Shown here piece after piece: positions 11,831-61,531 of a stretch of DNA of 64,000 nt. A model generated the notes under the pieces. The model did no database searches, had not been told where the DNA came from, and saw only the letters and a list, made by a program, of their open reading frames with translations. Each line of letters opens with the position of its first letter. Position 1 is the stretch's first letter. A program made the position numbers and the translations under genes. The stretch comes from Bacillus sp. Cs-700 (GTDB taxonomy: Bacteria > Bacillota > Bacilli > Bacillales > Guptibacillaceae): positions 4,202,001 to 4,266,000 of the forward strand of contig NZ_CP041063.1 of the NCBI RefSeq assembly GCF_011082085.1, written 5' to 3'.

Positions 11831-11944
11831 CACCAAACTTTCTTATCGCAATTTTTTGTGATTTAATGGTGTAAACAAGCATTTCGTGCGATCACTCTGA
11901 CGAAGGCACCAGGAAACGAGGTTGATTCCCAGATGGAGTGGGAA

Positions 11945-12559
11945 ATGATTAAAGACTTTTTAAATGAAGAAACAATCAGACAATGGCTCGGTCAGTATCG
12001 TGCTCTTGGACCATTGCCAGGAATTTTGCTTCCTATGCTAGAAGCAGTTATTCCGATATTGCCGCTATTTCTATTTGTGGCAGGCAATGCAGCCGCGTAT
12101 GGTTTTTGGTACGGCTCGTTGCTTTCATGGCTTGGTGCATCTCTAGGTGCTCTGATTGTTTTTATGGTGGTCAGGCGGCTTGCAAGACAGCGATTCATGC
12201 GAGTGGTAACAAAACACGCCAAGATTGAAAAAACTCTGCGCTGGATTGAGCGACATGGGTTTGGTATGGTGTTTTTGCTTCTATGTTTTCCATTTACGCC
12301 CTCGGCTTTAATCAATGTAGTAGCAGGTCTTTCGAATATGAGTATTCGAAGCTTTGTATTAGCTGTATTACTTGGAAAAATGGTGATGATTTCGATCGTT
12401 TCTTTTATTGGACATGATGTTTTTGCTTTAATTCACCAACCCCTGCAAATGGTTCTTATCCTAGTAGCGATTGTTCTTCTTTGGGGGGCAGGCAAATTAA
12501 TTGAAGTAAAACTAAATCAACGTCCTCGTAAGCATCGTACCGAGGATCAGGCGAGATAG
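11945..12559 (+). CDS. VTT/DedA-superfamily membrane protein (TVP38/TMEM64)
   Basis: This membrane protein of 204 residues has about five hydrophobic segments. It carries the VTT-domain signatures LEAVIPILPLFLFVAGNAAAYG near the N terminus and FPFTPSALINVVAGLSNM in the middle. Family members act in lipid scrambling or membrane homeostasis; the exact role here is inferred. GGAG (11935-11938) gives 6-bp spacing to ATG 11945; the in-frame ATG 11933 has only a distant GAGG. A strong terminator follows, and the gene converges on repeat block A. Confidence 0.82.
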   Translation: MIKDFLNEETIRQWLGQYRALGPLPGILLPMLEAVIPILPLFLFVAGNAAAYGFWYGSLLSWLGASLGALIVFMVVRRLARQRFMRVVTKHAKIEKTLRWIERHGFGMVFLLLCFPFTPSALINVVAGLSNMSIRSFVLAVLLGKMVMISIVSFIGHDVFALIHQPLQMVLILVAIVLLWGAGKLIEVKLNQRPRKHRTEDQAR

Positions 12560-12593: not shown

Positions 12594-12621
12594 CATATTT
12601 ATGGAATGAAAAAGATATGAC

Positions 12622-12907
12622 TAAGAGTTCCAATATCTCCGTTTCTAACCGCTCGTCTCCGCCTTTCGTTGATCCAGCTGCAGTGGGCAGGGTCTCGATC
12701 GCTTCACCTTATCAAATGAACACAAAGACCGTGTTCAATTTATAGGGTTCCAGTGCCTGCCGTGTCTAACCGCCCACTTCCGCTTTTCATGTCCAGCTGC
12801 GACTCGCAGAAACTGCGATATTTCACTCTTTCACCAGAACACAAAGGGCGTGTTCTAGTTCAAGAGTTCCAATATCTCCGTTTCTAACCGCTCGTCTCCG
12901 CTTTTCC
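12622..12907 (-). repeat. structured repeat block A (two full units and one half unit)
   Basis: This block holds two full units of about 119 bp and one truncated half of a GC-rich repeat family also found at 40.2 and 60.8 kb. In the sense orientation (- strand) it begins with GAAAAGCGGAG, 3 nt after the cotJC stop codon. The first unit folds as AGAAAC/GTTTCT, GATATT/AATATC, ACTCTT/AAGAGT and AGAACAC/GTGTTCT around the loop GCCCTTT. The second unit has arms of two different types and pairs less well. No gene is seen in the region; open frames here are by-products of the repeats. Confidence 0.9.
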
Positions 12908-12909
12908 AA

Positions 12910-13479
12910 CTAAAATATCCTTTTCTTGTCTCTTTCTTCTTTAAGTATTTCAACGGCTTCTCGGAAGCGTTGGGAGTGGATGATTTCGCGTTCTCTTAGG
13001 AAGGCGAGGGAGTCGTTTAGGTCTGGGTCGTCTGAGAGGTCGATGATCCATTGGTATGTGGCTCTTGCTTTTTCTTCTGCGGCGATGTCTTCGTATAGGT
13101 CAGCGATAGGATCGCCTTTTGCGGCGATGTAGCTTGCTGTCCACGGAACGCCTGCTGCGTTGGAATAGAAGAGAGCACTGTCATGGTTGGCATAGTGGGC
13201 GCCGAGCCCGGCTTCTTTCATTTGGTCTGCAGTGGCATCTTTTGTTAGTTTGTATACCATTGTGGCAATCATTTCTAGGTGAGCGAATTCTTCTGTTCCG
13301 ATATCCGTTAATAGACCAACAACTTTATCTGGAATCGTATAGCGCTGGTTTAGGTAGCGGAGAGCGGCAGCAAGTTCACCATCGGCTCCTCCATACTGCT
13401 CGATTAAAAACTTTGCTAGCATGGGGTTACATGTGCTTACTTTGACTGGGTATTGCAATTTCTTTTCATACACCCACAT
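12910..13479 (-). CDS. cotJC: spore coat protein CotJC (manganese-catalase family)
   Basis: This 189-residue protein of the di-manganese catalase/ferritin-like superfamily has metal-ligand motifs in two helix pairs: GADGELAAALRYL, TDIGTEEFAHLEM and EDIAAEEKARATYQW, with a final EIIHSQRF. CotJC is a component of the spore coat in Bacillus, assembled with CotJA. The length and motifs match the family. AAAGGATG precedes the ATG. It is the last gene of cotJABC, and no simple terminator follows: repeat block A begins 3 nt after its TAG. Confidence 0.96.
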   Translation of the reverse strand: MWVYEKKLQYPVKVSTCNPMLAKFLIEQYGGADGELAAALRYLNQRYTIPDKVVGLLTDIGTEEFAHLEMIATMVYKLTKDATADQMKEAGLGAHYANHDSALFYSNAAGVPWTASYIAAKGDPIADLYEDIAAEEKARATYQWIIDLSDDPDLNDSLAFLREREIIHSQRFREAVEILKEERDKKRIF

Positions 13480-38254: not shown

Positions 38255-40096
38255 TTGTGTGGGATAACTGGATGGGTGGATTGGAAGAAAAATCTAACAG
38301 GCGAAGAGAAAGTCCTCCAGCATATGGCGCAAACTTTATCAAAAAGAGGACCTGATGCATCAAACCATTGGGTTAATGGTCATTGTGGATTTGGTCATAC
38401 GCGATTAGTCGTTGTCGATCCGGCTGGTGGAAGTCAGCCGATGACAAGAAAACATGGTGAAATCAACTATACCATTTGTTATAACGGTGAGTTATACAAT
38501 ACGGAGGATTTACGCAAAGTTCTCCTCGGTAAGGGGTATACTTTCCAATCTCATTCAGATACGGAAGTTCTTTTAACGTGCTATGTCGAGTGGGGAGAGC
38601 AGTGCGTAGATCATTTGAATGGCATATTTGCATTTGGGATTTGGGACGGGGAACGTCTCTTTCTGGCAAGGGACCGACTTGGCGTAAAACCATTATTTTT
38701 TCGTGAAAGTGGAAGTTCGCTACAATTCGGATCTGAACTTAAAGCGATACTTGCTCATCCAGACGTCAAGAAGGAGATTGACCGAGGAGGTTTACAGGAA
38801 ATCTTTGGGTTAGGACCTTCTCGCACGCCAGGGCACGGTGTTTTTCGAGGGATAAGTGAGCTGCGGCCAGGATTTGCGATGAAATTTGACCGAAGCGGAC
38901 TTCGTATTTGGCGTTATTGGAATGTTGTCAGTACTGAGCACACGGATGACCTTGATACTACTGTGGAAAAGGTAGGCGATCTTTTAAAAGATTCGATTAA
39001 AAGGCAGCTTGTAGCGGATGTTCCAGTATGCACGTTTTTATCCGGCGGAGTTGATTCTAGTGCGATCACTTCTGTTGCTCGAAGTGCATTTCAGGATGAT
39101 GGGAAAGGTACGCTTCGTTCTTTTTCCGTAGATTATGTTGATAATGATAAATATTTTAAGAGTAGTGAATTTCAGCCTAATTCAGATGCGCCTTGGATTA
39201 AAAAGGTTTCTGCAGAACTTGCAACAGATCATACGAACTGTGTGATTGACACAGCTCAGCTTGTTCATCATTTAAAAGAAGCGATTGAGTGTCGTGATCT
39301 TCCGGGCATGGCTGACGTTGATTCATCCTTGCTGTGGTTCTCAAAAGAAATCAAAAAACACGCAACTGTAGCGCTGTCTGGGGAATGTGCAGATGAGATC
39401 TTTGGTGGTTATCCCTGGTTTCATAAACCGGAACTATTAGATCAGGAACAGTTCCCATGGATGCGGTCTACTCTTGAAAGACAGGCGATGTTAAAAGAAG
39501 ACGTTCGGAATAAGTTGAAATTAGAAGACTACGTGGTTGAAAGGTATCGTGAATCGATTAATGAAACTCCAGCGCTAGATGGTGAAAGTGAAATCGAAGC
39601 AAAAAGAAGAGCCCTCTTTTATTTAAACTTAAATTGGTTTATGACAACGTTACTTGAACGCAAAGATCGTATGAGCATGGGAGCTAGTTTAGAAGTTAGG
39701 GTGCCGTTTTCCGACCACCGTATCATTGAATACGTTTGGAACGTACCGTGGGAGATGAAGATGCTTGATGGGAGAGAAAAAGGGTTATTGCGTAAAGCGA
39801 TGACTGGAACACTCTCGCATGAAGTGCTCTACCGTAAAAAAAGCCCTTATCCTAAAACGTATAACCCAGCTTATACGAAAGCCGTTACTTCATGGCTTCA
39901 AGATACGCTCAACAATAAGCAGGCGCCACTCCTCGAATTAATCGATCAAAAAGTTGTTCAAGAAATTATCGATTCAGAGGGGAAAGCCTTTAAAGTGCCT
40001 TGGTTCGGTCAGCTAATGGCAGGGCCGCAATTAATTGCCCACCTTGCTCAAATTAATTACTGGATGGAACATCATAACGTGAATTTAGTAGATTAA
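38255..40096 (+). CDS. asnO: glutamine-hydrolysing asparagine synthetase, AsnO type
   Basis: This 613-residue class II glutamine amidotransferase uses a TTG start, so Cys2 (MCGITGW) becomes the N-terminal nucleophile after Met removal. GGGGAGGA lies 8 bp upstream. Glutaminase motifs RLVVVDPAGGSQPM and YNGELYN are present. The synthetase domain has the pyrophosphate loop LSGGVDSSA near 261-269 and SGECADEIFGGYPWF. AsnO of B. subtilis (similar length, same yis neighbourhood) is needed for sporulation. A role in amidating a product of the two upstream genes is an alternative. A strong terminator follows. Confidence 0.9.
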   Translation: MCGITGWVDWKKNLTGEEKVLQHMAQTLSKRGPDASNHWVNGHCGFGHTRLVVVDPAGGSQPMTRKHGEINYTICYNGELYNTEDLRKVLLGKGYTFQSHSDTEVLLTCYVEWGEQCVDHLNGIFAFGIWDGERLFLARDRLGVKPLFFRESGSSLQFGSELKAILAHPDVKKEIDRGGLQEIFGLGPSRTPGHGVFRGISELRPGFAMKFDRSGLRIWRYWNVVSTEHTDDLDTTVEKVGDLLKDSIKRQLVADVPVCTFLSGGVDSSAITSVARSAFQDDGKGTLRSFSVDYVDNDKYFKSSEFQPNSDAPWIKKVSAELATDHTNCVIDTAQLVHHLKEAIECRDLPGMADVDSSLLWFSKEIKKHATVALSGECADEIFGGYPWFHKPELLDQEQFPWMRSTLERQAMLKEDVRNKLKLEDYVVERYRESINETPALDGESEIEAKRRALFYLNLNWFMTTLLERKDRMSMGASLEVRVPFSDHRIIEYVWNVPWEMKMLDGREKGLLRKAMTGTLSHEVLYRKKSPYPKTYNPAYTKAVTSWLQDTLNNKQAPLLELIDQKVVQEIIDSEGKAFKVPWFGQLMAGPQLIAHLAQINYWMEHHNVNLVD

Positions 40097-40097
40097 G

Positions 40098-40132
40098 AAA
40101 AGGACTGGAGCGAGGGGCTCCGGTCCTTTTCT
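40098..40132. terminator. strong terminator after asnO, symmetrical
   Basis: A 14-bp stem (AAAAGGACTGGAGC with GCTCCGGTCCTTTT, one G-U) lies between asnO and repeat block B. It could also stop antisense transcripts coming from amt through the repeats. Confidence 0.88.
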
Positions 40133-40149
40133 ATTGGTGTTTATAATGA

Positions 40150-40911
40150 AGGGGTTCAGTGCTTGTCGAGGCTAAACTGAGGCTTCCGGCTTTCGTGTCT
40201 AGCTGCAGTGGGCAGGGTCTTGATCGCTTCACCTTCTAAAATGAACACAAAGGGCGTGTTCTTTTTAGAAGGCTCCAGCGCTTGTCGACCCTAAACGCCC
40301 ACTTCCGCCTTTCGTGTCTAGCTGCAGCACCCAGACACTCGGTCACTTCACCATCCAACTCGAACACAAAGGGCGTGTTCAATTCGGATGGTTCCAGTGC
40401 CTGCCGTGTCTAAACGGGCGCTTTCGCTTTTCGTGTCTAGCTGCAGCACCCAGACACTCGGTCACTTCACCATCCAACTCGAACACAAAGGGCGTGTTCA
40501 ATTCGGATGGTTCCAGTGCCTGCCGTGTCTAAACGGGCGCTTTCGCTTTTCGTGTCTAGCTGCAGCACCCAGACACTCGGTCACTTCACCATCCAACTCG
40601 AACACAAAGGGCGTGTTCAATTCGGATGGTTCCAGTGCCTGCCGTGTCTAAACGGGCGCTTCCGCTTTTCGTGTCTAGCTGCAGCACCCAGACACTCGGT
40701 CACTTCACCATCCAACTCGAACACAAAGGGCGTGTTCAATTCGGATGGTTCCAGTGCCTGCCGTGTCTAAACGGGCGCTTCCGCTTTTCGTGTCTAGCTG
40801 CAGCACCCAGACACTCGGTCACTTCACCATCCAACTCGAACACAAAGGGCGTGTTCAATTCGGATGGTTCCAGTGCCTGCTGTGTCTAAACGGGCGCTTT
40901 CGCTTTTCGTG
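40150..40911 (-). repeat. structured repeat block B (half unit plus six tandem 119-bp units)
   Basis: After a truncated half unit, six units repeat at exactly 119 bp (from 40195, 40314, 40433, 40552, 40671 and 40790 to 40908). The last five are nearly identical; the first is a different type. In the sense (- strand) orientation the block begins 3 nt after the amt stop codon. Stems in the five similar units are AGACAC/GTGTCT, CACT/AGTG, CCATCC/GGATGG and GAACAC/GTGTTC. In the divergent unit they are AGGGTC/GACCCT, CGCT/AGCG, CCTTCTAAAA/TTTTAGAAGG and GAACAC/GTGTTC. No real gene is present. Confidence 0.95.
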
Positions 40912-42318
40912 TTACCCGCTGGTTTTTGCTTCGGCTGGATGTTCTTTTACACCTGGTTCGAGTCCGTTGAGTCGCTCGACTAGGCCGTGGCCGAATGGGG
41001 AGGGGGATGATGATGGGCTTTCGTTGTTGTTTAGGATGCCTCCTCTAACCCCGTATGCTGTGGAGCCGTGTTCGGCGAAATCAAGTCCTTGAATTTCTTC
41101 ATCACGCGACACGCGGATGGAAGAAAAACGAGTATAGATGAATAAAAAGGTGCCGACCGTTCCCATTGTCCAGGCCATAACAGCTAGAATTCCGATTGTT
41201 TGAACAAGGATGAGGGATGCGCCGCCTCCATAGAATAATCCGCCATCGATAGCAAACAATCCGACTGCTAAAGTTCCCCATACCCCGCATACCCCGTGAA
41301 CTGCAATTGCTCCAACTGGATCATCCAATTTCAGGCGGCGATCAATCAATTGAACGGCTTCAATAAGAATAACTCCAGAAATGAGACCGATAAACATAGC
41401 GCCAATTGGGGAGACGCTTGCTGTACCTGCTGTAATTCCGACTAATCCAGCTAATGCGCCGTTTAGAGTTAAGGAAGCATCAATTTGCTTATAGCGCACG
41501 TAAGAATAAAAGGCGCTTCCAATGACACCACTTGAAGCTGAGAGAAGAGTGGTTGCTACGATAGTAGGAATAAGTGCGTCGCTTGCTGAAAGAGTACTAC
41601 CTGCATTAAAACCAAACCAACCGAACCAGAGAATGAATACGCCAAGAGCACCGAGTGGAATATTATGTCCTTGAATAACATTAATCTTGCCGTTCGAATA
41701 TTTCCCAATACGTCCTCCGAGAAACGCTACGGCAACAACTGCTCCAAGCGCACCAGTCATGTGAACGACCGTTGATCCTGCAAAGTCCGTAAATCCTAAC
41801 TCTGCAAGCCATCCGCCACCCCAGATCCAGTGGCCTACGACAGGGTAGACAAATCCAATCATGATTACTGTAACAGCGATATAGCTAATCAGTTTCATTC
41901 GTTCAGCTACTGCGCCAGAAATAATCGTAGCACAAGTTGCTGCAAAGACGGCTTGGAATACAAAAAATCCAAGGTTTTCAGATTGTCCAAAGAGAAAGAA
42001 GCCATCACTCCCAATAAACCCGCCTGCTGACGAACCAAACATTAATCCATAGCCAACAATGAAGTAAAGAACTGCACCGATCGACATTGTTAGTAAGTTT
42101 TTCATTAAAATGTTTAATGCGTTTTTTGAGCGAGTAAATCCAGTTTCAACCATTGCGAATCCCGCGTGCATAAAGAATACGAGAAATGCAGCAATCATAA
42201 TCCAGACGGTATCCATTGAAGCACTTAAGGCACTGACTTCTGTAGCATCACCTGCTGCGAAGACATGCCCACCTGAAAGAAGGAAGAGAAGAGCGAACAA
42301 ACCAGTGATTTTTTTCAT
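40912..42318 (-). CDS. amt: ammonium transporter
   Basis: This 468-residue Amt/MEP/Rh transporter has an N-terminal signal-like segment (ending GGHVFAAG) and about eleven membrane helices. Signatures are MVETGFTRSKNALNILMKN, DFAGSTVVHMTGALGAVV with the pore His, and AIAVHGVCGVWGTLAVGLF with the second His. The C-terminal tail after about 425 is soluble and contacts PII in the family. It follows glnK in the same transcript. Its stop codon is the edge of repeat block B, and no ordinary terminator lies between. Confidence 0.95.
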   Translation of the reverse strand: MKKITGLFALLFLLSGGHVFAAGDATEVSALSASMDTVWIMIAAFLVFFMHAGFAMVETGFTRSKNALNILMKNLLTMSIGAVLYFIVGYGLMFGSSAGGFIGSDGFFLFGQSENLGFFVFQAVFAATCATIISGAVAERMKLISYIAVTVIMIGFVYPVVGHWIWGGGWLAELGFTDFAGSTVVHMTGALGAVVAVAFLGGRIGKYSNGKINVIQGHNIPLGALGVFILWFGWFGFNAGSTLSASDALIPTIVATTLLSASSGVIGSAFYSYVRYKQIDASLTLNGALAGLVGITAGTASVSPIGAMFIGLISGVILIEAVQLIDRRLKLDDPVGAIAVHGVCGVWGTLAVGLFAIDGGLFYGGGASLILVQTIGILAVMAWTMGTVGTFLFIYTRFSSIRVSRDEEIQGLDFAEHGSTAYGVRGGILNNNESPSSSPSPFGHGLVERLNGLEPGVKEHPAEAKTSG

Positions 42319-54726: not shown

Positions 54727-54767
54727 TTTAATAGTATCAAACGATAACATGTAAAGCTTTTATATAT

Positions 54768-54853
54768 CCACTAGGGGAGTCATTTTAATGACTGAGACAG
54801 GTGTGCCTGGACCCTTTGAACCTGATCTGGTTAGCGCCAGCGGAGGAAAGTGG
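54768..54853 (+). ncRNA. TPP (thiamine pyrophosphate) riboswitch, THI box
   Basis: The aptamer has P1 CCACT/AGTGG, the GGGGAGTC start, the invariant CTGAGA (54792-54797), and the pyrophosphate arm ACCCTTTGAACCTGATCTGG followed by TTAGCGCCAGCG. It stands ahead of tenA-ykoEDC and is followed by a terminator. Binding of TPP is expected to shut the operon off. Confidence 0.97.
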
Positions 54854-54869
54854 AGACGGATGCCACCGC

Positions 54870-59617: not shown

Positions 59618-59906
59618 ATTGGACCATCGTCCCTTCATCAATTATTAAGTACGTATGTAGATTGAAGCTTGTTTTCTTAAAGTTTATCCCCTAGTCCAAT
59701 GGAAATCAATCCTATTAAAGAAGTTGAATAGAAAACAGTTGACGTAGTTGAAATTGTTTGTTTAGATAAACATGGCTAAGTCGAATGGTTTGTTTGTAAC
59801 CAAACGATGAACGACAAAGTGTTTGAGTAAAAGAAGGATTACGTGAGAACTCAACTAAAATTCTGTAAACGAGTTAAAGCTCTGTTTCAAAAAGAAGGTG
59901 CTATGT

Positions 59907-60746
59907 TTGGAAGAAGTAAAAAAAATTATTGTCATTCTCTTAGGTGCGATTCTCGGGGCTGTTTCTCTTAACTTGTTTCTAATTCCTGCAAATGTGTATG
60001 CGAGCGGGTTTACAGGGATCGCGCAGCTCATTTCAAGCGTACTAAGTGATTATACACCTATTACAATCTCGACAGGTATTCTGCTCATGTTACTCAATAT
60101 TCCTGTTGCCATTCTTGGATGGAAGAAAGTAGGGAAGTCCTTTACATTATATAGTGTGATTAGCGTAGGGGCTACCACTATATTCCTTGAAATCATTCCG
60201 GTCCAAGCGCTTTCAGAGGATATTTTGTTAAATGCGGTATTTGGAGGCGTCATTGCAGCGATTGGTATCGGTTTTACGTTAAAATGGGGGGCTTCCACGG
60301 GCGGAATGGACATTGTCGCTATGATTCTTTCTAGAATGAAAGATCGCCCGATTGGTACGTACTTCTTTAGCATGAACGCGTTAATTATTCTAACAGCGGG
60401 AATGCTGTACGGTTGGGAAAAAGCGCTTTACACGCTCGTTACCTTATATGTATCCTCTCGCGTGATTGATGTCATTCACACTCGTCACGAAAAACTAACG
60501 GCCATGATCGTAACAGCGAAAGGTGACGAAATGCAAAAAGCCATCCACGATCGTTTAGTTAGAGGAATTACCAAGCTTCCAGCCAAAGGAGCCTACCGCG
60601 GTGAACCAAAAGAAATGCTCATGATCGTGGTCACAAGATATGAACTCTATGATCTTGAACATATCATTCAAGACATCGACCCAACCGCCTTCACCAACAT
60701 CGTCAACACCACAGGAATCTTCGGCTTCTTTAGAACGGATGGTTAA
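59907..60746 (+). CDS. YitT family membrane protein (DUF161/DUF2179)
   Basis: This protein of 279 residues has five or six membrane helices from about 5 to 185 (LGAILGAVSLNLFLIPANVYASG; GASTGGMDIVAMIL). A cytoplasmic C-terminal DUF2179 domain follows (about 195-279; KLTAMIVTAKGDEMQKAI). The function is unknown. AGAAGG 8 bp before TTG 59907 is preferred; an in-frame GTG at 59898 overlaps that site. The TAA stop is followed directly by GAAAAGCGGAG, the first bases of repeat block C, with no ordinary terminator. The 265 bp upstream hold no gene. Confidence 0.88.
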   Translation: MEEVKKIIVILLGAILGAVSLNLFLIPANVYASGFTGIAQLISSVLSDYTPITISTGILLMLLNIPVAILGWKKVGKSFTLYSVISVGATTIFLEIIPVQALSEDILLNAVFGGVIAAIGIGFTLKWGASTGGMDIVAMILSRMKDRPIGTYFFSMNALIILTAGMLYGWEKALYTLVTLYVSSRVIDVIHTRHEKLTAMIVTAKGDEMQKAIHDRLVRGITKLPAKGAYRGEPKEMLMIVVTRYELYDLEHIIQDIDPTAFTNIVNTTGIFGFFRTDG

Positions 60747-61229
60747 GAAAAGCGGAGAAGAGCGTTTAGAAACGGAGATATTGGAACTCTTGAACTAGAA
60801 CACGGACTTTGTGTTCTGGTGAAAGAGTGAAATATCGGAGTTTCTGCGAGTCGCAGCTGGATCTCATGAAAAGCGGAGCGGGTCCGTTTAAATCCACAGG
60901 ATGTTGGAGCCCTATCGAATGAGACGCTTTTTGTCTCAATCGATAGGGCGAAACAGCCGAAGGATTTGACCCGCGCAGCTGGATCAACGAAAAGCGGAAG
61001 TGGGCGTTTAGACACGGCAGGCACTGGAGGCATTCAAATTGAACACGCCCTTTGTGTTCGAATTGGATGGTGAAGTGACCGAGTGTCTGCCCCCTGCAGC
61101 TGGATCAACGAAAAGCGGAAGTGGGCGTTTAGACACGGCAGGCACTGGAGCCTTATCAAAAGAACACTGCCTTTGTGTTCTGGTGAAAAAGTGAAATATC
61201 GCAGTTTTTGCAAGTCGCAACCCATCATC
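60747..61229 (+). repeat. structured repeat block C (four units)
   Basis: Four units of the repeat family lie in sense orientation on the + strand, starting at the base after the yitT stop. Unit 1 pairs AGAAAC/GTTTCT, GATATT/AATATC and ACTCTT/AAGAGT. Unit 2 is the most divergent, pairing GCGGGTC/GACCCGC, AAATCC/GGATTT and GCCCTATCGA/TCGATAGGGC, with even the inner stem changed to GAGAC/GTCTC. Unit 3 pairs AGACAC/GTGTCT, CACT/AGTG and CATTCAAATTGAACAC with its partner. Unit 4 has mismatched arms. No gene is seen. Confidence 0.93.
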
Positions 61230-61232
61230 AAC

Positions 61233-61270
61233 AAAAAAGTTCCTCAGGATAACCCCTGAGGAACTTTTTT
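61233..61270. terminator. intrinsic terminator of the NFU-N gene
   Basis: A 16-bp perfect stem (AAAAAAGTTCCTCAGG with its complement) lies between repeat block C and the stop codon of the NFU-N gene. Confidence 0.9.
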
Positions 61271-61531
61271 CTATGCGTTATTAGAGATGGTTTCCTTTAC
61301 TTCAGGAAGTAAAGTATCCCAGTCTGCTTCAGGCATTTTGTTAATCGTAATGAAATCCTGGTAACCAAATACATTATCCACGCCTTCTAATTTTAGAAGG
61401 GCAGCTGCCATTGCATGGTCAGGGGTGTCGTTCTTCTTAAAAGAGTGACTTGAAGACCCTTCAAAAAGCTGCTGATCGGCAGTAATTTTAACTGCATTTG
61501 GGTTTGGTGTACGGTCTACGCGTAGTTCCAT
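61271..61531 (-). CDS. NFU N-terminal-domain protein (Fe-S scaffold-like)
   Basis: This protein of 86 residues has the NFU N-terminal domain pattern DRTPNPNAVKITADQQL near the start and LLKLEGVDNVFGYQDFITINK in the second half. The C-terminal CxxC domain that binds iron-sulfur clusters in full NFU proteins is absent, and there is no cysteine. A role as an accessory or regulator of cluster transfer is only inferred. AAAGGAGG precedes the ATG. Confidence 0.82.
   Translation of the reverse strand: MELRVDRTPNPNAVKITADQQLFEGSSSHSFKKNDTPDHAMAAALLKLEGVDNVFGYQDFITINKMPEADWDTLLPEVKETISNNA

Follow-up and report, generated by a model that had tools for sequence, protein, structure and literature searches.

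The window analyzed here is a 64,000-nt stretch of the chromosome of Bacillus sp. Cs-700 (host genome G000, a single contig of 4,297,839 bases). Three blocks of a repeat with a period of about 119 nt had been predicted in it, at 12622-12907 (-), 40150-40911 (-), and 60747-61229 (+), and all three are present in the sequence as described (Table 1). The twelve units claimed match the twelve full units that we count, two in block 1, six in block 2, and four in block 3, and blocks 1 and 2 each carry one additional left half-unit. Tandem Repeats Finder recovers the period in block 2 (119 nt, 6.4 copies, 40153-40912); the terminal half-unit of that block begins slightly beyond the predicted range, at 40137. 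Each array lies close behind a gene: block 1 begins 3 nt past the stop of the Mn-catalase-like gene, a gap of 1 nt separates the ammonium transporter stop from block 2, and the first base of block 3 is immediately past the TAA stop of the YitT gene. A TPP riboswitch (RF00059) at 54763-54865 (+), scoring 80.5 bits, was the sole match in an Rfam scan of the whole window.

Table 1. Repeat units and neighboring features of the three blocks in the window.
Feature	Position	Strand	Support
VTT domain protein gene, convergent, beyond block 1	11933..12559	+	PF09335, E 1.8e-24
Block 1 terminal left half-unit	12621..12669	-	nhmmer, model 2-51
Block 1 unit 2, hybrid	12673..12788	-	cmsearch 109.5 bits; pairs formed 0.84
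Block 1 unit 1, type A core	12792..12906	-	cmsearch with R1, 108.1 bits
Mn catalase family gene, directly upstream of block 1 (sense)	12910..13479	-	PF05067, E 8.8e-78
Asparagine synthase gene, convergent, beyond block 2	38255..40096	+	PF00733, E 6.4e-97
Block 2 terminal left half-unit	40137..40197 (upper end approximate)	-	nhmmer, model 2-58
Block 2, six full units	40198..40908	-	cmsearch 118.8-126.0 bits; TRF period 119
Block 2 type C unit	40198..40313	-	
Block 2 type B units, five near-identical	40317..40432, 40436..40551, 40555..40670, 40674..40789, 40793..40908	-	
Ammonium transporter gene, directly upstream of block 2	40912..42318	-	PF00909, E 7.8e-116
YitT family membrane protein gene with DUF2179, directly upstream of block 3	59898..60746	+	PF02588, PF10035
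Block 3 unit 1, type A	60747..60861	+	cmsearch 107.6 bits; fold z -5.1
Block 3 unit 2, type D (AAATCC/GGATTT, GAGACG apex)	60868..60983	+	cmsearch 105.4 bits; fold z -7.8
Block 3 unit 3, type B	60989..61104	+	cmsearch 114.2 bits; fold z -3.5
Block 3 unit 4, hybrid B-left/A-right	61110..61225	+	cmsearch 60.5 bits; fold z -0.26; pairs formed 0.68
Terminator-like hairpin with T-run, past block 3	61238..61270	+	sequence and pattern match

On the sense strand, about 115-150 nt fold as a rod made up of a foot (GAAAAGC...GCT), a stem 1 of 7 bp, a TTTA-like bulge, stems 2-4 divided by purine-rich internal loops (GGA/GCA at the foot, GGA/GA above stem 3), and a tight apex, for example GAACAC/GTGTTC. 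All of the stem variants listed in the original prediction were found. The loop GCCCTTT occurs as well, but it is not the sole loop, with GGTCTTT, GCTTTTT, and others also in use. When six of the twelve units were folded singly against 200 shuffles, four beat every shuffle (z -5.1 to -8.1), one shuffle did as well as the unit at 60989, and the hybrid unit at 61110-61225 did not fold above chance (74 of 200 shuffles as good). In hybrid units the arm type switches close to the apex, as in the unit at 12673..12788, which has a left arm of type B (AGACAC) and a right arm of type C (GACCCT); the hybrid at 61110-61225 has lost folding. In genome G049 (L232, 2801-3253), units of about 147 nt at 153-nt spacing represent a longer variant of the same fold.

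The original prediction rested on both arms of each stem changing together, and covariation was measured over genomic copies collected with R1, a covariance model trained on 37 units. The 96 matches from the host genome (92 distinct), in an alignment fitted to the model structure and so biased towards it, have 92.8% of cells paired versus 74.3% with shuffled partners, covariation of 0.517 versus 0.182 shuffled and at most 0.111 slid, and double compensatory changes at 32 of 37 pairs. An alignment of 105 matches (102 distinct) from G023, G027, G032 (4 of its 20 stretches), G049, and Rossellomorea L084, fitted in the same way and carrying the same bias, gave 92.6% paired cells, covariation of 0.740 versus 0.187 shuffled and at most 0.139 slid, and double changes at 35 of 37 pairs; one of the five measures, further pair types, was matched by 15 of 500 shuffles. 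A free MAFFT alignment retained double changes at 25 of 37 pairs. Part of the signal of arms changing together can come from whole cores being exchanged as blocks. Stems 1, 2, and 4 differ in many combinations, however, and the non-pairing loops are retained, so that selection on the fold is still needed. The fold is under constraint. Both refutations set for the original prediction were attempted and failed: covariation held in the host genome and in other genera, and Rfam returned no match at the repeat blocks in the scan of the window and none in a scan of 60700-61280 at E up to 1; together these results support the predicted undescribed structured RNA or DNA element under folding selection.

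Covariation of this kind could also arise by quasipalindrome correction in replication, where one arm is copied from the other and no selection on folding is involved. Entire stems do change together with few intermediates, as such correction would produce. Yet it should also erase the mismatched loops and the bulge, and both persist in the host-genome units and in the other-genera matches, which the model itself selected. Few units pair poorly, and six of the eight units with less than 0.85 of pairs formed are the last in their array. We regard correction without folding selection as very improbable.

One unit used as a BLAST query gave 75 matches in the host genome, and R1 found at least 100 copies there with 150 of 1631 candidates scored. 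The 94 matches in the first host-genome stretches read fall into 29 clusters, and strand is uniform inside every one of them. The family was detected in 13 of 13 congeners searched, G007 has at least 69 matches, and at least 51 of the 61 genomes in a set of relatives carry the family, own genome included (60 candidates scored per genome with stricter filters). In a sample of the phylum, at least three of 299 genomes match, own included, all three from the order Bacillales, and none of the 295 genomes outside Bacillales does, with 12 candidates scored per genome and stricter filters. Copy numbers and ranges are lower bounds, since a fraction of candidates was scored and filters were stricter in the relatives and phylum searches. 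A scan with the ammonium transporter listed 80 loci, none of them from the window's own genus; 25 were checked with the model, one of which carried units; this was Rossellomorea vietnamensis L084, with two units, one of them beginning 6 nt past the ammonium transporter stop. No match was found in plasmid and phage collections with one unit as query, and no description of the family was found in the open-licence literature searched. The repeat family spans many genera of one order and has no Rfam entry, and the original observation is confirmed as real and wider than first stated. Nitrogen-assimilation genes recur near units, in small numbers: asparagine synthase and an ammonium transporter in the window (38255-42318), asparagine synthase and glutamine synthetase in G049 (L220, L227), and the ammonium transporter of Rossellomorea L084.

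Arrays often start at stop codons. In the host genome, 17 of 29 clusters begin at -6 to +4 bases from the stop codon of a sense ORF, a count in which three arrays (L027, L029, L033) rely on short ORFs (45-69 aa) that Pfam does not support (L027 unscanned) and from which short ORFs at L015 and L035, judged not real, were left out. Over four genera, the first unit lies at a sense stop codon in 31 of 64 cases, six of 70 rows having been removed where the left flank was itself unit-like. The upstream genes are diverse and include those for Mn catalase, ammonium transporter, YitT, 6PGD, G6PD, a Crp-like regulator, acyl-CoA dehydrogenase, a carbohydrate kinase, and thioesterases, among others; of 35 upstream proteins listed, 30 were scanned and six of these had no Pfam match. 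A strict TAA insertion target was not supported; 11 of 33 first units away from stops have TAA or TAG among the last bases. A different, short repeat resembling TTCCGCGATATT/TTCCGCGAAATT occurs in several copies 3' of the arrays in L028, L033, and L034 and after 5S in L180.

Units also lie inside housekeeping operons. Three are found between atpG and atpD, and seven of eight rrn operons carry a single sense unit between 23S and 5S at an identical position, the seven being of two types (four and three) (the R1 search by itself found six, the full count is seven); one operon is empty. No target-site duplication is seen at the rrn sites, where the empty site reads CCTAAAAATATTGG and the filled site CCTAAAAA followed by the unit and TATTGG. 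In the arrays at L022, L220, and L232, a copy of the foot and a few flank-like bases are present at both ends, which resembles a target duplication and which the rrn sites do not explain. Although the many units after stop codons might suggest transcription terminators, the sense strand has no T-run past the hairpin, 8 of the 17 stop-adjacent arrays have a separate terminator-like hairpin downstream (strict pattern), and the units in the atp operon and before 5S occupy positions where termination should harm. The rrn and atp placement disfavors a terminator identity, which we find scarcely credible.

In the host genome dnaA lies at 2.672 Mb, where the GC skew changes sign, and the second flip, at the terminus, is bracketed at 0.57-1.27 Mb. 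Against this axis, 25 of 32 non-rrn arrays run against replication, while the seven rrn units are co-directional with it. In other genera, where orientation was read for sampled clusters only, by whether GC skew over 6 kb was positive or negative (a weak signal in some), 16 of 17 clusters in G049, 17 of 21 in G023, and 3 of 3 in G027 run against replication, making 61 of 73 for the four genera together (p 5e-9). A fifth genome, G032, was omitted from the 73 because the unit there mostly sits inside a different repeat; its 20 clusters are near-even (11 against, 9 with), and their inclusion gives 72 of 93. That other repeat, seen at L256-L275, is dispersed and GC-rich, with GCAGGGGGACGCTTTCC or CCACGGGGCGGG on the left. 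The bias is retained in transcription-symmetric contexts, convergent or divergent (21 of 27, p 0.006; contexts from a simple gene caller, misplaced at L025, L027, L029, L033, and L019).

Among 82 distinct units, the sense strand is the more stable of the two in 80 when folded as DNA and in 78 when folded as RNA, and running against replication places this better-folding strand on the leading-strand template. PMC11023631 describes such an arrangement in chromosomal integrons, whose orientation keeps the strand that folds and recombines as the template of leading-strand synthesis. The orientation bias points to a role as DNA at least as much as to a role as RNA. Action on RNA would have the sense hairpins in 3' UTRs and in the rRNA precursor affect stability, RNase III-type processing, or ribosome slowing at the stop, the last reported for some E. 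coli REPs. The stop-codon and 23S-5S positions fit such a role, as do the 12 co-directional clusters, each of which follows a gene in sense orientation (11 of them at its stop codon), and the better folding of the sense RNA. Wobble cells also favor G-U over A-C (210 vs 41), but the excess is small outside three columns (60 vs 41). Moreover, 33 of the 73 clusters are classed as antisense between same-strand genes, most of them without a known sense transcript, although in no fewer than four cases (L025, L027, L029, L033) the gene caller missed a sense ORF that precedes the array, and the persistence of the bias in transcription-symmetric contexts also speaks against it. An RNA element is a serious contender that we nevertheless judge somewhat unlikely.

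Comparison among congeners separates the history of the array loci from that of the units. Over about 80 kb around the window, all five array loci of the host genome are also present in G005, G007, G009, and G011 with strand kept, and three of the five in G001; unit number and type differ between species at these loci. The YitT locus carries units in 9 of 14 congeners, own included, and at three of the five unit-free loci (the three sequences inspected) the gene closes at the equivalent stop codon and the 3' region follows directly. Array loci are conserved while their units turn over, and because the loci are mostly common to congeners, new insertion looks rare. Host-genome clusters contain ten partial units, nine of which close the 3' end of an array as a left half; the tenth is a right-part match in L018, an irregular array. 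In relatives the 5' end is not always intact: G008 has a right half there, and the first unit is shortened in G004 and G007. Pairing is poorer in the final full unit of an array than in the opening one (28 arrays, 0.907 vs 0.949, p 0.008 by one-sided permutation), with the final unit lower in 17 arrays and higher in 7.

Within the units, frame and core behave differently. The frame test covered 155 units of 50 arrays in six congeners and compared 160 same-array pairs with dissimilar inner cores. Identity within arrays exceeded the permuted value in the left spacer and foot (0.748 vs 0.694, z 5.3, 0/500) and in the right spacer (0.747 vs 0.669, z 5.6, 0/500). Seven core segments, stem 1 included, had no array-specificity (z -1.2 to 0.8); since the pairs were picked for dissimilar inner cores, only stem 1 and the frame are unaffected by that choice. 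The foot GAAATGCGG, for example, is common to 7 of 7 full block 1 units in G005 and 5 of 5 in G009, with cores of several types. Given array-specific frames and non-specific cores, the cores look drawn from a genome-wide pool while the frame stays with the array, and from these patterns we infer that cores behave as exchangeable cassettes. Apex-centered gene conversion was expected to make array-specificity change gradually between spacer and loop; no such gradient was seen, and site-specific cutting fits the sharp, gradient-free core boundary better than ordinary gene conversion. In a more specific form, hairpins would be excised at a fixed boundary and swapped from the pool of about 100 copies within frames of about 17 nt peculiar to each array, while arrays age 3'-ward, via host repair or an undescribed recombinase; we offer this form speculatively and think it unlikely.

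Movement by a dedicated enzyme could give a similar picture, the candidates being an HUH transposase as in IS200/IS605 and REPs, an attC-type integrase that acts on folded single strands, or a Cas1-like frame duplicator. Cassette-like cores in array-specific frames, strand bias, the lack of rrn target duplication, copies of the foot bounding several arrays on both sides, and decay at the 3' end are all consistent with such an enzyme. Of the genomes examined for Y1_Tnp genes, 15 of 16 with units have them, but so do 7 of 10 that lack units, and G027 has none despite at least 30 units. The two in the host genome are flanked by palindromes unlike the units, and mobilization by a RAYT was rejected on this ground and because Y1_Tnp presence does not track the units. 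These two RAYT-like genes stand alone (L036 1246-1863 (-), L037 1282-1863 (-)) and, with their nearby palindromes (GGGTCAGGCTCGAGCCTGACCC upstream of the L036 gene), may form a separate REP-type system. The integron integrase model TIGR02249 gave a best score of 97.7 bits versus a cut-off of 265, with sub-cut-off matches in all 14 control genomes, and the attC ends RYYYAAC...GTTRRRY were present in 0 of 85 units on either strand; identity with integron attC sites was rejected on both counts. The seeming rarity of new insertion likewise argues against a dedicated enzyme, and we consider one improbable.

Several known systems share part of this behavior. The attC arrays of sedentary chromosomal integrons are alike in forming arrays and in having the folding strand on the leading-strand template, and attC sites conserve structure while their sequence varies, as these units do. 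Unlike attC arrays, the units come without gene cassettes and at dozens of separate loci. CRISPR arrays have an array-specific repeat frame, differing inserts, and decay at one end; the frame and the one-end decay are alike here, whereas the inserts are hairpins from a genomic pool. The REP/BIME elements of enterobacteria and pseudomonads are dispersed intergenic hairpins in arrays, and the present units are likewise intergenic and frequent at stops. PMC12306157 and PMC3733652 describe some REPs as lying within 15 nt of a stop codon or providing one, the former with a count of 446 of 4,072. REPs are 20-40 nt, whereas the present units measure 115-150 nt and combine several stems with internal loops that are conserved. 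Nor is the GTAG/CGTC tag of REPs constant (GTAG near an end in 18 of 85 units, CGTC in 20 of 85), and a RAYT flanked by the repeat, a REP trait, was not found, there being no consistent Y1 transposase. Cores common across array-specific frames are a further difference from REP/BIME. The STAR elements of staphylococci resemble the units in direct-repeat arrays, intergenic loci, and variable unit number; according to PMC3532100 they are a 14-bp GC-rich repeat with spacers, for which its authors did not find gene conversion between loci, unlike the cores here, which are common across loci. The bcr1-bcr18 repeats of the B. cereus group are, by their published description, also intergenic Bacillaceae repeats. 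PMC3446304 states that some bcr repeats have conserved secondary structure and that about half are expressed in one strain, and compares bcr1-3 to MITEs; a title cited terms bcr1 specific to the B. cereus group.

The explanation we favor, tentatively and at slightly less than an even chance, is that the units are a non-autonomous REP/BIME-like hairpin repeat of Bacillales turned over by structure-driven recombination. The sense strand, when single-stranded, would extrude the hairpin, which would be cut or lost at its base, and the gap may then be refilled from another copy via the conserved short ends GAAAAGCGG and GCAGCT. This cut-and-refill step, conjectured from sequence patterns, would swap the core as a cassette and leave the frame in place. 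Tandem slippage would add and remove units, and copies would be retained where the better-folding strand is the leading-strand template and also directly past genes, where a hairpin leaves coding uninterrupted. We favor structure-driven turnover because of the covariation, the frame/core split, the turnover of units at conserved loci, the hybrids, the folding of the sense strand, the replication bias, and the lack of duplication at rrn sites. The placement at stops and in the rrn and atp operons, the conserved loci with turnover, the frame/core split, and the replication bias are features added here to the original prediction.

The units occur in many genera of Bacillales and lie at the ends of housekeeping genes and inside rRNA and ATP-synthase operons. 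The family provides a comparative system for the spread and upkeep of hairpin repeats and for their placement at stop codons, and the replication-strand bias together with the frame/core split makes structure-driven recombination directly testable. If it is instead the RNA that matters, the units would constitute a widespread 3' UTR structure outside Rfam.
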